In this document: one piece after another, positions 4,864 to 49,644 of the stretch
Layout: each line of letters begins with the position of its first letter
Numbering within the stretch: position 1 is the first letter of the stretch
From: a virus
Virus record (IMG/VR): IMGVR_UViG_3300005533_000003
Coordinates: 1-64,000 of that record
Strand: one strand, 5' to 3'
Length of the DNA stretch: 64,000 nucleotides
Program-made: the position numbers and the translations under genes
Notes under the pieces: model-generated
What the model saw: only the letters and a program-made list of their open reading frames with translations
Database searches by the model: none
Told to the model about the DNA's origin: nothing

Positions 4864-5568
4864 TTACGCCGGTATGAACCCCTCATTCCTAAACTCACCA
4901 TACTTATAATCCATTTCCCAAAAGTGCCCACGCCACGCCTTTGCACTACCCTTTCCTTTAATCCAAGGTGCGAATAGCTCTCCCGGCTCATTGCCACACA
5001 GGACTAAGGGTCTCATACCTTGTTTACTCAACTCCAAAGCTTTCTTAAAATCCACCTGCAATTGTCTATGATACGCCGGTACTCTGAAGACTTCTCGGGG
5101 GTTAAAGGTAATGAAGCATATGTTAGGATTAAATTTCCTTAAACCCCCTGAAACCAATTTGCCCTCCTCTCCGTGTGAATTATCAAACACTCGGCATGAT
5201 ACTTCCGCGTTATCCCTGGTACGTCCGGTGGGATAGTTAGGCTTCTTCAACTTACTATTCCACTTTGGCACGCACCGCAATAAGTACGTTATCAATAACT
5301 CGTCCTTCTTGATACCTGCCGGATACACATAAGTACGAAGGATAAACTTCCCCATATCACTTGCCATAGCTTCCCGTTCGTTAGCATCGTCCTTTTCAGG
5401 ATAGGAAAACATGATAGCAATTTTTGCATTACTACCAACGAAGTCTGGTACAAAGCCATAGGAGTATGGGTTAAATAAACACGTATCGCATTCGACCGGC
5501 TTACTACCCACCCCACTAGAAGCCCATGGAGCACGAGAAGCTACTAGGATAGGGGGTAAGTTATTCAT
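4864..5568 (-). CDS. Uracil-DNA glycosylase superfamily protein
   Basis: 234 residues. CDTC near residue 28, a GxxxG-like nucleotide loop region (IMFSYPEKDDANEREAMASD) and LLRCVPKWNSK match the Fe-S family 4-type UDG layout, in which four Cys bind a cluster and the loop positions a water for uracil removal. The C-terminal block LCGNEPGELF...WRGHFWE fits the DNA-intercalation region. Phages carry such proteins either as repair enzymes or as polymerase accessory factors. The family A polymerase lies 1.5 kb downstream on the same strand. Family assignment is good; subfamily is open. Confidence 0.75.
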   Translation of the reverse strand: MNNLPPILVASRAPWASSGVGSKPVECDTCLFNPYSYGFVPDFVGSNAKIAIMFSYPEKDDANEREAMASDMGKFILRTYVYPAGIKKDELLITYLLRCVPKWNSKLKKPNYPTGRTRDNAEVSCRVFDNSHGEEGKLVSGGLRKFNPNICFITFNPREVFRVPAYHRQLQVDFKKALELSKQGMRPLVLCGNEPGELFAPWIKGKGSAKAWRGHFWEMDYKYGEFRNEGFIPA

Positions 5569-40115: not shown

Positions 40116-41186
40116 ATGACTAAGCCCGTTTTTTTTATATCTTCTATGTCCCTTGAGCCTTGGGATTGGCGTAATCCTTGGACTAAGGGTATCGGTGGGT
40201 CGGAGACTTCACATATTGAGATGGCTTACCGGCTTGCGAATAGGGGTTATAAGATAAAGTCCTATACGCCGGTCGAAAAGCCTTCTATGCATAATAAAGT
40301 TCCCTATCGACATGTAGACGAGGCTGTAAGTAGCAAGAATGGTCTATATATCTGGTACCGGGACCCTATTAAGTTCGATTTGGACAAACATAGTAAGGCC
40401 AAATGGTGGTTTATAGCCCAAGATGTTGATTACGAAGGGTTATGGACTAAAGAACGGTTGGCTAAGGTCGATAGGTACATATGTCTGTGTAAAGACCATA
40501 AGAACTATACCGAATCTAAGTATCCCGAACTACGTGGGCGAGTTTATATTTCTTCGAATGGTATACGATCCAATAGTATTAGACTGCGGTCACAAGTTAA
40601 ACGTAACTATAATCGCCTTTTCTTCCCATCCTCACCGGATAGAGGTATTAAATTAATACTTGAGAACTGGTTTCGTATCCGGGAGATAAATCCCAAGGCT
40701 GAAATCTATGTAGCGTATGGGTTTGATAATATGGAGGCTATTGTTAAACTTGCGGGTACTGGAGATTGGCGTTATCAATATCAAATAGAATTACAGCAAC
40801 TAGCTAAACAACCGGGTGTATATTTTGTAGGCCGACAAAATCAGCATCGTATTTATGAATATTGGAGGGGAACCAATATTTGGGCACATCCTACTGATTT
40901 TCCCGAAACCTCGTGTATTACTTCTATGGAAGCACAAGCCTTAGGAGCATGGCCGGTTACCAATAACTTATGGGCCTTACGAGAGAATGTTAATTATGGT
41001 TGGATGGTACAGGGAATACCCCAGAAATCGGAACTTGTACGTACTAACTGGTTACATGCTTTGGAACAAGCCTTTCACTGTCGGGATGAAAAGACACGTA
41101 AGGAAATGCAGGAATGGGCGTTAGAGAGGTTTGACTGGGAAAAAGTAGTAAATCAGTGGGATATATGGATTAAGGAAGACATGTAA
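40116..41186 (+). CDS. GT4-type glycosyltransferase, 356 aa
   Basis: GIGGSETSHIEMAYRLANRGY gives the N-terminal GGxE loop. SSPDRGIKLILENW is a GT-B-type second-domain start. HPTDFPETSCITSMEAQALG matches the ExxxxxxxE block of GT4 enzymes. It probably transfers a sugar from a nucleotide-sugar to a phage or host target such as a glycan or capsid. Followed by a FkbM methyltransferase and a GT-A enzyme. Confidence 0.85.
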   Translation: MTKPVFFISSMSLEPWDWRNPWTKGIGGSETSHIEMAYRLANRGYKIKSYTPVEKPSMHNKVPYRHVDEAVSSKNGLYIWYRDPIKFDLDKHSKAKWWFIAQDVDYEGLWTKERLAKVDRYICLCKDHKNYTESKYPELRGRVYISSNGIRSNSIRLRSQVKRNYNRLFFPSSPDRGIKLILENWFRIREINPKAEIYVAYGFDNMEAIVKLAGTGDWRYQYQIELQQLAKQPGVYFVGRQNQHRIYEYWRGTNIWAHPTDFPETSCITSMEAQALGAWPVTNNLWALRENVNYGWMVQGIPQKSELVRTNWLHALEQAFHCRDEKTRKEMQEWALERFDWEKVVNQWDIWIKEDM

Positions 41187-41887
41187 TGAGTTTCTTGGAA
41201 AAAGTTCCCACTACTTTTAAACCTTTCAAATGGGTCACAGATACCGGAGTACCCTTGGAAGTTAAAAACGAACATGACTTAGTGGTATTTTGTGACATAT
41301 TTGTTAATAACGAGTATCCTATCTTCCCTAAAGTAAACCCGGCCCGTACCGCGAAGATATTGGACTTAGGGGCTAATATCGGGTACTTTAGTCTCTACGC
41401 GGCCCATAGATGCAAGAAGTTTGGACAGCCATATACGATCTTTTCCGTGGAAGGTAACCCGGATAACTATGATGTCCTGACTGAAAGGACTAAGTGGGAT
41501 GGTAATATTCGTCCATACTTTGGACTTATAGGCAAAAAGAAAGGTTCAGCGTATATTACTGCAAGTGCCAACCATGCTACATGTTCAGTAGTTCCTCTTA
41601 AAAGTAAGTATCCAAAGATAAAAGTAGATTACATAGACCTAAATAATATCGGCCAACAGTCCTACGATATTATCAAATGTGATATTGAAGGCGCAGAGTT
41701 TGACTTTATTAAAAACTATCCCGAGATATTAAAAGGTTCGTGGATGGTTTTTATGGAAGTTCATTATGCCTTTGGTGATATTGACAAGTTTCGAAAAACT
41801 ATGAAAGATAAGTATGGTTATAACGGTTTCCGGCAACTTATGAACCACGGAGATACAGCCAGTACGGAGGTTTACTATCGTGAGTAA
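41186..41887 (+). CDS. FkbM-family methyltransferase, 233 aa
   Basis: Overlaps the previous gene by one base. AKILDLGANIGYFSLYAA is a SAM-binding motif I, then SVEGNPDNYDVL and YDIIKCDIEGAEFDFI, the FkbM signature. It likely O-methylates sugars made by the neighbouring glycosyltransferases. Confidence 0.85.
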   Translation: MSFLEKVPTTFKPFKWVTDTGVPLEVKNEHDLVVFCDIFVNNEYPIFPKVNPARTAKILDLGANIGYFSLYAAHRCKKFGQPYTIFSVEGNPDNYDVLTERTKWDGNIRPYFGLIGKKKGSAYITASANHATCSVVPLKSKYPKIKVDYIDLNNIGQQSYDIIKCDIEGAEFDFIKNYPEILKGSWMVFMEVHYAFGDIDKFRKTMKDKYGYNGFRQLMNHGDTASTEVYYRE

Positions 41888-42593
41888 GCTACATACTACC
41901 GGAGCAGCAGGCACCATTTCCCGTATGTGGGCTGATAATGTCGGATCAAAGTTCCTAGACTCTCTAGCCCAGTTACTTATCTACGAACAATCTAAACTTC
42001 CTAAAGGCAAATACATTCACTATGAAACTCCTACCGTTTCTTGGCATGAATTAGCGCGTAATCAAATTGTCGAGAAGGTACAGGGAGACTGGCTTTTAAT
42101 GCTGGACACTGACCATGTGTTTGCCCCCGACCTATTAGAGCGTCTTATGAGGATAAAGAAGAAATATAAGGCGCAAGTTATTAGCGGTACGTATCAATAT
42201 AAATTTCCGCCCCATGCTCCCGTTGCAAATATGTGGGAAGAGACAGATAAAGGTTTGAAAGTACGGCCCATTACTGCGTGGGATAGAAATGCAGATGCCA
42301 TATCTGTAGGGCCTATGCCCGGTGGTTGTCTCTTGGTGGATAAATCTGTCCTACGTCGTATGATGGCCGAATTAAACGAGAAACCCTTTCAAATTATACC
42401 GGGTCTTTCCGAGGATTATTCTTTTTGCTTCCGTTGCAAGAAGTTAGGGATTCCGGTATATTGGGCACCTAGGGTCGAGAGCCACCATATCATACCTAAC
42501 GTATTGTCAGTACAAGACTATGTGTTTCCAGCAGGACTAGAACCCACACGTACAGAGAACGGTGTTATGATAGAAACAGGAGAACAGAGATAA
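41880..42593 (+). CDS. GT-A fold glycosyltransferase, 237 aa
   Basis: Has LLMLDTDHVFAPDLLERL with a DxD-like DTD, GPMPGGCLLVDKSVLRRM and SEDYSFCFRCKKLGIPVYWAP, typical of family 2-like transferases. It overlaps the FkbM gene by eight bases. The three genes look like one cassette under the promoter at 40077. Confidence 0.8.
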   Translation: MSKLHTTGAAGTISRMWADNVGSKFLDSLAQLLIYEQSKLPKGKYIHYETPTVSWHELARNQIVEKVQGDWLLMLDTDHVFAPDLLERLMRIKKKYKAQVISGTYQYKFPPHAPVANMWEETDKGLKVRPITAWDRNADAISVGPMPGGCLLVDKSVLRRMMAELNEKPFQIIPGLSEDYSFCFRCKKLGIPVYWAPRVESHHIIPNVLSVQDYVFPAGLEPTRTENGVMIETGEQR

Positions 42594-46269: not shown

Positions 46270-46977
46270 ATGTCGAGTACTTACTATCCACAGCAGGCAT
46301 TTGACTATGCTAAGAGGTATATTAAAAATATGCCTTTGGAACAGGTGCAAGTGCAGATATTGGATGATACCAATAAAATGATGTGGATGCATAGTCCTTG
46401 GCGATGGTCCGTAAGTACGTTCCCCGATATTACCCTGATAAACGATACGTCGGATTATACAATTACGGTACCGAGTGATTTTCTTTATATCCAGGAAGCC
46501 TATATTACAGATAGTGCGGGTGGGCCGACTAAAAAGCTTTATATTGAACCCTACCTTAATCAAGGGGGGATAAAGGGTAATCCTACACGGATGGCTCTTA
46601 CTAGTGGGACGCCGGGAGCTAGTGGAAATATTCGGTTTTCACCCCAAATAGGACAAGTTCCTACTATTGGTTGGACGGCTAAGACGCTGTATAAGAAACA
46701 GGCCCCTATCATTACTGCATCTAACGCTAATACCGTTGGGGTACAGGTTTTTGATGATGAATGGTTTTGGGTGTATGTGAGTGGGGTGCTTTACTTTGCG
46801 TATCTTTTCGGAGATGACCAACGAGCAGGGGCGGCACAGGTAGATCCGTCTAGCGGTCGAGTCAGTTTCACGGGTCAGCGGGGTGTATTCGAAGCAAACT
46901 TAGCCCTTATGAAACAACGGGAAAAGCTTCCTGGTATGGATTCCACAATTCAAGACGAACAAAGGCAGTTAACATAA
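46270..46977 (+). CDS. Head-to-tail adaptor-like protein 1, 235 aa
   Basis: FDYAKRYIKNMPLEQVQVQILDDTNKMMWMHSPWRWSVSTFPDI, then DYTITVPSDFLYIQEAYI, and a C-terminal helix with DDQRAG and TGQRGVF. It resembles the 47714 protein (W-W core, IPxDF, DPRAG), so the two are paralogs. Such proteins attach the portal to the tail in short-tailed phages. Ends in a TAATG junction with the phosphatase. Confidence 0.6.
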   Translation: MSSTYYPQQAFDYAKRYIKNMPLEQVQVQILDDTNKMMWMHSPWRWSVSTFPDITLINDTSDYTITVPSDFLYIQEAYITDSAGGPTKKLYIEPYLNQGGIKGNPTRMALTSGTPGASGNIRFSPQIGQVPTIGWTAKTLYKKQAPIITASNANTVGVQVFDDEWFWVYVSGVLYFAYLFGDDQRAGAAQVDPSSGRVSFTGQRGVFEANLALMKQREKLPGMDSTIQDEQRQLT

Positions 46978-47687
46978 TGCCGGGGAAAGTGGGAGAAGCC
47001 GCCGAAGGACCCAAGGCTGGCGAAGTGATACGTGGGTCTACCGAACTTAATATCTCGGAAGAGGGTAAAGAGCAGGGACGTAAGTTAAATGAACATATAA
47101 AGCGTTTGGGTGGTTTTTGGCGTATTTACTACTCTTCCCAGATGCGTGCTGCCCATAGTGCCCATATCGCGGTGAGTGGTACAGAAACCCGTTTTATGGC
47201 CCCTTCGCCCGAGCTTGAAAGCTGGCACTTGGGCGGTTATGAAGGAAAGTTCGTTAAAGACGTTTTACCAGATATTCAGGACCTTGTAGCCGAGCGTCCT
47301 TGGGTAGTCCCTCCTGGAATGGGAGCAAAAAGTACTAAACCGGGAGAGAGTTTTAACCAATTTAAAAGCCGTGTACTTAATAAAGTACGTGAGTTAATGG
47401 AATTGTGGGAAGAACATCCTACTAAGCGTATTGCAGTAGTTACCCATTTCCATGACATTCAGCTAGTGGACGCATGGTTGCATTGCTATAACGGCCATCC
47501 AGATAAAGGGGATGATGGTTACACAGCTAAGATTTATAACCAAGACATAGGGGAACCGGGTGAAGTTATTTGGTTGCATAAAAGTGGCGGCAAATGGAAG
47601 TTTCAGAGGATAGATATTTCCAAGTTTCCCGTCCTTCCTCCCGGTATTTACTTCATACGGCACTTTATGACCGGATGGAATAAGTAA
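46977..47687 (+). CDS. Histidine phosphatase with permuted sequence order, 236 aa
   Basis: The protein starts where the family normally reads after its first motif: VIRGSTELNISEEGKEQGRKL (18-37). SSQMRAAHSA (Arg57), LESWHLGGYEG (Glu81) and VVTHFHD (His157) follow in the normal order. The catalytic RH motif, usually at the N-terminus, is at the C-terminus: GIYFIRHFMTGWN (223-235, His229). So all catalytic residues are present but the sequence is circularly permuted. Both RHG and THG have Phe for Gly. It sits between two adaptor genes and is co-translated with the first. Substrate unknown. Confidence 0.75.
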   Translation: MPGKVGEAAEGPKAGEVIRGSTELNISEEGKEQGRKLNEHIKRLGGFWRIYYSSQMRAAHSAHIAVSGTETRFMAPSPELESWHLGGYEGKFVKDVLPDIQDLVAERPWVVPPGMGAKSTKPGESFNQFKSRVLNKVRELMELWEEHPTKRIAVVTHFHDIQLVDAWLHCYNGHPDKGDDGYTAKIYNQDIGEPGEVIWLHKSGGKWKFQRIDISKFPVLPPGIYFIRHFMTGWNK

Positions 47688-47713: not shown

Positions 47714-48472
47714 ATGGCTGTTAGACCAACAACTTATACGTGGAATGATGTTATGTCCATTGTCGGACGTAAATCTTCCCGTGGTTTAGTGGATGATTTG
47801 GGACCGATAATTGCGAATGCTACGCTTAATTGGGTATGGGATAAGTACGATTGGCGAGAGTCAATTGGGCAATTACCACCTTTCTATCTCGTTCCGAACG
47901 AACAAGATTATGGCGCTCCGACAGTCACTATACCTACTGATTTTTATGGTCTACGTTGGTGTAACTTGGTTAGGACTGACAATACTCCACCGTATAGACA
48001 ACCTGTTACGGTCATTAAAGACTTGCAAACTACCCATATTCGGTACTTGCCGCACGCAATTGGATATATAAGCGAAAAAAAGGCTTTCCGGCTTTTTCCT
48101 CGAATACCGGATAATATTGGCTCCCCGACGTACTTAATTGAGGGAGTTTATAAAAAAAGACCAGCTAAGATTACGACGGAAAATCTGTCCACGACTCTGT
48201 TACCGTTTGATGATATCTACTTCGAAATGTGGATTGAAACGGCTAAGTGGGTTATGTGGCAAATGGATAGCGACCCTCGGGCGGGACAGATTACTATGGC
48301 AAATGGACAGATAAGTTCTAATGGTCAAGCTGCGGTCATGATGAACATGGTCGAGTGGGCTGCGAGTAGAGAGGGTCTGGAACTTTCCGAGCCTATTATC
48401 TCTCCGGCAGAACCGTTAGTTAGTCAAGGTCCTTACCGTCCTGCTTTGTTTGGTTTGGGTTTCTCTTTTTAA
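47714..48472 (+). CDS. Head-to-tail adaptor-like protein 2, 252 aa
   Basis: TYTWNDVMSIVGRKSSRGLVDDLGPIIANATLNWVWDKYDWRES, YGAPTVTIPTDFYGLRW and DSDPRAGQITMANGQ show the same core as the 46270 protein. The fold is likely of the gp4/gp6-like connector type. It would sit below the portal. Confidence 0.65.
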   Translation: MAVRPTTYTWNDVMSIVGRKSSRGLVDDLGPIIANATLNWVWDKYDWRESIGQLPPFYLVPNEQDYGAPTVTIPTDFYGLRWCNLVRTDNTPPYRQPVTVIKDLQTTHIRYLPHAIGYISEKKAFRLFPRIPDNIGSPTYLIEGVYKKRPAKITTENLSTTLLPFDDIYFEMWIETAKWVMWQMDSDPRAGQITMANGQISSNGQAAVMMNMVEWAASREGLELSEPIISPAEPLVSQGPYRPALFGLGFSF

Positions 48473-48888: not shown

Positions 48889-49238
48889 TGTTAGACCTGG
48901 AAGAGTTGTTATCGGTTATTGCTACGGAAGAGGGTTTTTGGCGGGATGGGACGCCGGATATTCCCCAGACACATAACAATCCAGGGGACCTAAGGAACTA
49001 TACTCCACCATACAAGATTGCCGACTTTCCTACTATCGCGGATGGTATTGCTTGGGGTATTACTCAGTTGGCTTTGGACGTGCGTAGGGGACAGAGTTTA
49101 AGACAGTTAGTATATAACTGGGCACCCCCTTCCGAGAATAACTCTGAAGCTTATTTTCAGTTCGTCGCTAGTAAGTTTCCGCAATTCGACCCCGATACAC
49201 CTTTAAAAAACTATTATGAAATCCGAAAAGCTGAATAA
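48888..49238 (+). CDS. Muralytic-type NNPGDL protein, 116 aa
   Basis: TEEGF near residue 13 and HNNPGDLRN near 30, then FPTIADGIAWGITQLAL and NWAPPSENNSEAYFQFV. This resembles the lysozyme-like/NNPGNL family found as endolysin or virion-associated lysins, with Glu14 as possible catalytic acid. No signal peptide. Together with the zinc peptidase it forms a small host-wall module. Confidence 0.65.
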   Translation: MLDLEELLSVIATEEGFWRDGTPDIPQTHNNPGDLRNYTPPYKIADFPTIADGIAWGITQLALDVRRGQSLRQLVYNWAPPSENNSEAYFQFVASKFPQFDPDTPLKNYYEIRKAE

Positions 49239-49644
49239 GTCGTTAGTTTTATACGTTTTTAACCCTCCAACTAATTACACTTGTAAAGAATGCGCTTTTA
49301 TAAGCCCACAGGGTAACTGTAGTAATTATATCGAATCGGATAAAAACGTTAAACCCTATGGGTCTTGTAACGACTGGCGTACTCAGAAACATGGATACGT
49401 GCAAGGGACCCATGATAGGACTAAGGAACAGACGGGTTATACCGAAAACGAAAAGGGCTTTGGGTGTAGGCGTTGCGAAGAATTTATAGCCGATACCAAA
49501 ATGTGTAAAAAGGTGGATGAAAGCGGAGGGCCTACCGTGGGTATTATTCACCCCGGAGCCTGTTGTAGCCGTTGGGAAGCTGATCCAGTAAGGTCTAAAA
49601 TGTCGGATAACCAGCTAAACGGTATGCGTAACTACAGGGTATAA
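49216..49644 (+). CDS. Protein with duplicated four-Cys module, 142 aa
   Basis: Two repeats of CxxC-x(7-8)-C-x(15-18)-GxC: CKEC...NC...GSCNDW (about 22-53) and CRRC...MC...GACCSRW (about 84-121). The Cys pattern resembles high-potential iron-sulfur proteins found in phages, so a metal or Fe-S cluster is possible. Overlaps the previous gene by 23 bases. Confidence 0.6.
   Translation: MKSEKLNKSLVLYVFNPPTNYTCKECAFISPQGNCSNYIESDKNVKPYGSCNDWRTQKHGYVQGTHDRTKEQTGYTENEKGFGCRRCEEFIADTKMCKKVDESGGPTVGIIHPGACCSRWEADPVRSKMSDNQLNGMRNYRV

Follow-up and report, generated by a model that had tools for sequence, protein, structure and literature searches.

The open reading frame at positions 46977–47687 (+ strand) of an environmental virus sequence encodes a protein of 236 amino acids that is almost certainly a circularly permuted branch-1 histidine phosphatase, with the catalytic RH motif at its C-terminus. 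Our preferred reading, with a rough probability of 0.62, is that the protein is a genuine permuted phosphatase that would use the catalysis usual for this branch and act early in infection as a virion-associated or injected enzyme; activity, packaging and substrate are the parts that we infer. The window analysed here is the 64,000-nucleotide stretch at positions 1 to 64,000 of a 67,047-base IMG/VR virus record (IMGVR_UViG_3300005533_000003).

Domain order of the phosphatase

Histidine phosphatases form a large, well-studied fold, for which the N-terminal RHG serves as an annotation signature. The His_Phos_1 profile (PF00300) is matched by residues 16–163 of the window protein at profile positions 15–153 (E = 2.2e-15; 57.3 bits against a curated cut-off of 21.7), and 9 of the 9 permuted members scanned match it. 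Because the match starts at profile position 15, the RHG start of the profile is missing from the N-terminus; the missing motif makes up the final 13 residues of the protein (IYFIRHFMTGWNK). The chain comprises an N-terminal extension (residues 1–15; 46977–47021), which is unconserved in the alignment and has pLDDT values below 50 at residues 1–13, the phosphatase core (residues 16–163; 47022–47465) delimited by the Pfam match, and the relocated first strand with the RH motif (residues 223–236, GIYFIRHFMTGWNK; 47643–47684), corresponding to the N-terminus of ordinary members, all on the + strand. The RHG motif is present as RHF at residues 228–230 of 236, away from its N-terminal placement. 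RHxxTxWN occurs once in the six frames of the window, in this C-terminal segment, with 0.01 occurrences expected by chance. Since homology to PF00300 is clear and the order is rotated, the window protein is a permuted relative, not a standard member of the family.

The profile of normal-order relatives was written twice in tandem, and all nine permuted proteins tested align to this doubled profile as a single domain across the join, from approximately position 21 to 229 of 428. None of 300 tail shuffles equalled the real score for eight of the proteins; for L023, 1 of 300 did. The permuted-family profile aligns with PhoE (PDB entry 1h2e) in two swapped pieces, with profile positions 207–219 on chain residues 4–16 and positions 3–156 on chain residues 18–162; the normal-order sister profile covers chain residues 3–162 in a single piece. 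Over the core, the permuted and normal-order families were matched by hhalign with a probability of 100%. The first-pass annotation of this DNA had proposed a C-terminal RH motif and a circular permutation, and both proposals are upheld by these comparisons, by the shared order of the homologues and by the structure model; a tandem profile match spanning the join had been suggested there as a check. No homologue with a second, N-terminal RHG, named there as a finding that would speak against permutation, was found, and the virus record holds no second, normal-order phosphatase copy.

Structure model

The AlphaFold2 model of the window protein has a mean pLDDT of 86.9 and a pTM of 0.86, and residues 223–228 form a strand within a well-predicted stretch. 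The model of the normal-order relative L072 (pLDDT of 90.9) has the same main elements with the relocated strand first, so that the element order of the window model is that of the relative with the first strand shifted to the end. The top PDB matches found by Foldseek are PhoE and other histidine phosphatases; a structural library of viral proteins gave only distant matches. Foldseek was set aside as direct proof of permutation, because the normal-order control also had modest TM scores (best TMq 0.74 vs 0.63), and the contrast is supportive only. It had been anticipated that the C-terminal residues would occupy the catalytic strand position: the confident fold, the strand and the rotated order agree with this, and judging from the model the strand 223–228 probably lies in its old place within the sheet.

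Active site

Arg228 and His229 (47658–47663, + strand) align with the phosphate-binding Arg and the phospho-accepting nucleophile of the family, and are predicted to have these roles. The second Arg and second His of the pocket, which mark membership of branch 1, are present as Arg57 of the SxxxRA motif (47145–47147, +), invariant in the rows compared, and His157 of the VTH motif (47445–47447, +), assigned by alignment and residue comparison. All four residues are kept in 9 of the 11 type-A permuted proteins, type A being the order of the window protein. The roles of these catalytic residues have been described in a homologue, and the proton donor differs among families (PMC12051542).

The general-acid Glu of LxExxxGxxEG, a position that varies between families, aligns with Ser82 (47220–47222, +) in the PhoE profile alignment and residue comparison. 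The earlier assignment of Glu81 as a catalytic residue was one position off, and the statement that all catalytic residues are present does not hold, since the general acid is replaced by Ser82. Apart from L012, all the phage sequences compared, permuted or not, have P, S, T or A here; E occupies the position in the cellular members of the comparison. Both motif glycines are Phe in the window protein (RHF and THF), as the first-pass annotation had noted. With the general-acid Glu absent and RHG replaced by RHF, activity is not assured; the window protein is nonetheless probably an active phosphatase. As the acid is missing here and in unpermuted phage relatives, the enzyme is expected either to prefer substrates whose leaving groups are good or to rely on another acid.

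Two embedded permuted domains depart from the core, one without the second core His (L022:4995–5672; VTH to VGS) and one without the first core Arg (L023:4989–5651; IRH to ILH), which suggests from their sequences that some permuted domains are inactive. The giant phage proteins L103, L105 and L107 carry, near position 5001, a normal-order phosphatase domain that is apparently degenerate (SEHGEDT in place of RHGxT).

Homologues and origin

The type-A order is present in 12 contigs (11 distinct sequences), the window included, from many metagenomes and a metagenome-assembled genome (MAG); the search of environmental phage genomes suggested in the first-pass annotation thus yielded 11 further contigs. 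In a relative phage contig with a terminase 61% identical, the same gene lies between the same two adaptor genes and encodes a protein that is 53% identical and ends in GIYLVRHAETPWNL. All of IMG/VR was searched at the DNA level for the pattern RH(G/A)xTxWNx-stop, which gave five matches, namely this contig, L008, which adjoins a portal gene and ends in GGVYLIRHGATDWNG, and three short chance frames. Profile scans added the permuted proteins L015/L016, L017 and L019, together with the embedded domains of L022, L023, L027, L088 and L102. Identity between the window gene and L013 is 57/72/37% at the three codon positions, a sign of probable purifying selection on the phosphatase gene.

A permuted relative was identified in none of 50,697 phage records. 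In cultured phages, tblastn with the permuted queries (window, L013, L008, L016, L017, L022 and L027) gave no match, or low identity over at most approximately two-thirds of the query, and the normal-order query L025 gave low-identity matches only; L012, the one cultured-phage match examined over its whole length, is a phosphatase of the ordinary, unpermuted order. PADLOC returned no match. An archaeal host was considered for L017 and rejected: a full-length permuted match was found in 1 of 200 genomes of the phylum of the MAG, namely in the MAG that holds L017, so L017 probably belongs to a phage and was binned with that genome. In a literature search with most subscription papers outside its reach, no permuted histidine phosphatase with either cut point was found, in keeping with the earlier remark that no described case was known.

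The second cut point (type B) is known from one contig, L108:3–5852 (IMGVR_UViG_3300050015_000289), where residues ~1730–1913, the C-terminal part of a giant protein, form a domain of the same phosphatase clade. The core half comes first (GESFNDF, VTHN), followed by RHGETEDN and SDLPRAIRTADILA; the domain begins before LxxLNxxxLAG and finishes after the SxxxRAxxTA helix. On the doubled profile it is a single 66.7-bit domain at tandem positions 85–288, and there is no further phosphatase copy downstream. The permuted, differently permuted and unpermuted sisters constitute a natural experiment on the origin of permutations.

That the order is an artefact of assembly or rearrangement, or that the C-terminal RH motif arose by chance, has a negligible probability. 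The rarity of close relatives and a first IMG/VR scan without a close match to the window protein would fit such an origin, but it is refuted by the recurrence of the same order in 12 contigs of varied source and by the chance expectation of 0.01 for the motif in the window, and the record lacks a second copy. A different question is whether the type-A order arose once. A core tree of 43 rows in circular register intersperses the permuted proteins with ~26 normal-order phage relatives; eight permuted proteins group together (support 85/73), with no placement for L027 or for L088 and L102, which form a pair. Two changes are required for the type-A proteins on this tree. These two changes, and the different cut of L108, which implies that permutation of this fold can recur, would fit a repeated origin at the same cut point. 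The AU test does not reject a single clade that holds every type-A protein (p = 0.46), however, and both domain ends are alike in all members, which makes repeated origin unlikely against one ancestral event. With L108 forced into the type-A clade as well, the tree is worse by 9.3 log units (p = 0.11).

Locus and proposed role

The phosphatase gene lies in the head-tail module, and its start codon overlaps the stop of the upstream gene (TAATG). The upstream neighbour (46270–46977, +; PF24175, E = 8e-7) and the downstream neighbour (47714–48472, +; PF24175, E = 3e-6) are both SU10-type head-tail adaptors with 25% identity to each other (E = 2e-9), consistent with the paralogous adaptors seen in the first-pass annotation, and this flanking is kept in the relative contig. 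In L008 the permuted gene has the portal gene upstream and a virion structural protein as its other neighbour; the L017 gene sits after a gene for a transglycosylase protein. The gene position suggests a link of the window protein to the virion.

The window protein is a single domain and not itself polyvalent; its relatives L022, L023 and L088 are multidomain. In L022 the permuted domain shares a polypeptide with an SNF2-type helicase, and in L023 with a 2H phosphoesterase. L088:2559–10265 encodes a 2569-residue phage protein with a permuted histidine phosphatase and a 2'-5' RNA ligase-type (2H) domain, the latter weakly resembling the anti-CBASS protein Acb1 (E = 8e-4, below the Acb1 family cut-off). 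Zeta toxin and LPD38 domains accompany the normal-order phosphatase of L075. Polyvalent proteins have been proposed to be co-injected with DNA (PMC5512222, PMC9503650), which favours a virion-associated or injected phosphatase; given the head-tail location and the related domains in giant polyvalent-type proteins, such a role is the most likely one. The main text of PMC5512222 does not contain the word 'phosphatase'.

In the permuted chain, the old N-terminal strand with RHxxTxWN follows the old C-terminus, and the new start is at the RGxxD loop. In the proposed mechanism, the phosphate would be held by Arg228, Arg57 and His157, taken up by His229 and released by water, in the usual two-step catalysis. 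Preferred substrates may be those with good leaving groups, such as phosphohistidine or phosphoanhydrides, unless an alternative acid is used. The enzyme, carried on the virion or injected, could act early in infection on a phospho-compound of the host or of a defence system; for the window protein, an injected role in conflict falls somewhat short of even odds. More tentatively, the family may represent an undescribed environmental-phage clade that lacks the usual acid, is permuted at two cut points, and serves as an injected effector, alone or within polyvalent proteins, dephosphorylating a host or defence signal.

The protein might instead be permuted and folded yet catalytically dead, a binding or structural part of the virion. 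Such a role would accommodate the loss of the acid Glu, the change of RHG to RHF and of THG to THF, and the core losses in L022 and L023, but we regard it as quite unlikely: the four-residue core is kept in most type-A proteins, the window pair appears to be under purifying selection, RHA replaces RHG in Rv2135c, a characterised family member of Mycobacterium tuberculosis (PMC3866925), and a whole sister clade without the acid Glu still keeps RHG and TH. It is also unlikely that the enzyme is active in an ordinary metabolic role during infection, on nucleotide, sugar-phosphate or cofactor phosphate, with no host conflict. The histidine phosphatase superfamily is mostly metabolic, and CobC, PhoE and phosphoserine phosphatases are among the profile matches; against this, the genes lie in head-tail modules or in giant proteins with conflict-type domains, outside metabolic clusters, and the window protein reaches no NCBIfam equivalog cut-off.

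Relation to known phosphatases

PhoE (YhfR) of Bacillus stearothermophilus is the best profile and fold match, with each residue of the Arg/His/Arg/His core aligned to its counterpart; however, its RHG is N-terminal and it has the general-acid Glu where the window protein has Ser82. The normal-order RPWNVG-type phage phosphatases (L025, L068, L072, L091 and others) belong to the same clade, with GESFNDF and THxR common to both and P, S or T before W replacing the acid. They differ in their N-terminal RHG, and several are fused to an XkdF-like peptidase (PF14550) or to Zeta-toxin/LPD38. SixA, of the same superfamily, likewise lacks the usual acid Glu, but it is small and in normal order, and no specific sequence match to it was found here. 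A phosphohistidine intermediate has been described for this phosphohistidine phosphatase (PMC7948535). With the polyvalent proteins of phages and conjugative elements (PMC5512222) there is a likeness in the related phosphatase domains of giant phage proteins with SNF2, 2H/Acb1-like and LPD38/Zeta domains, from which the single-domain window protein differs. From these natural permutants it seems that a C-terminal strand can serve to build the active site, and the family points to a putative phosphatase as a component of virion modules and polyvalent-type proteins in phages.

Other genes near the phosphatases

Glycosyltransferase- and methyltransferase-like genes (PHROG matches) lie at window positions 40116–42593, within the head module and past the major capsid gene. 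A small Cys-rich protein (window 49216–49644) looks by eye like the Cys-rich segment that precedes a normal-order phosphatase (L025:3119–3478), with no Pfam match. Directly behind the permuted gene of the relative phage is an open reading frame of 114 residues (L004:1147–1491, − strand), absent from the window, with a Cys/His pattern that by eye is HNH-endonuclease-like.
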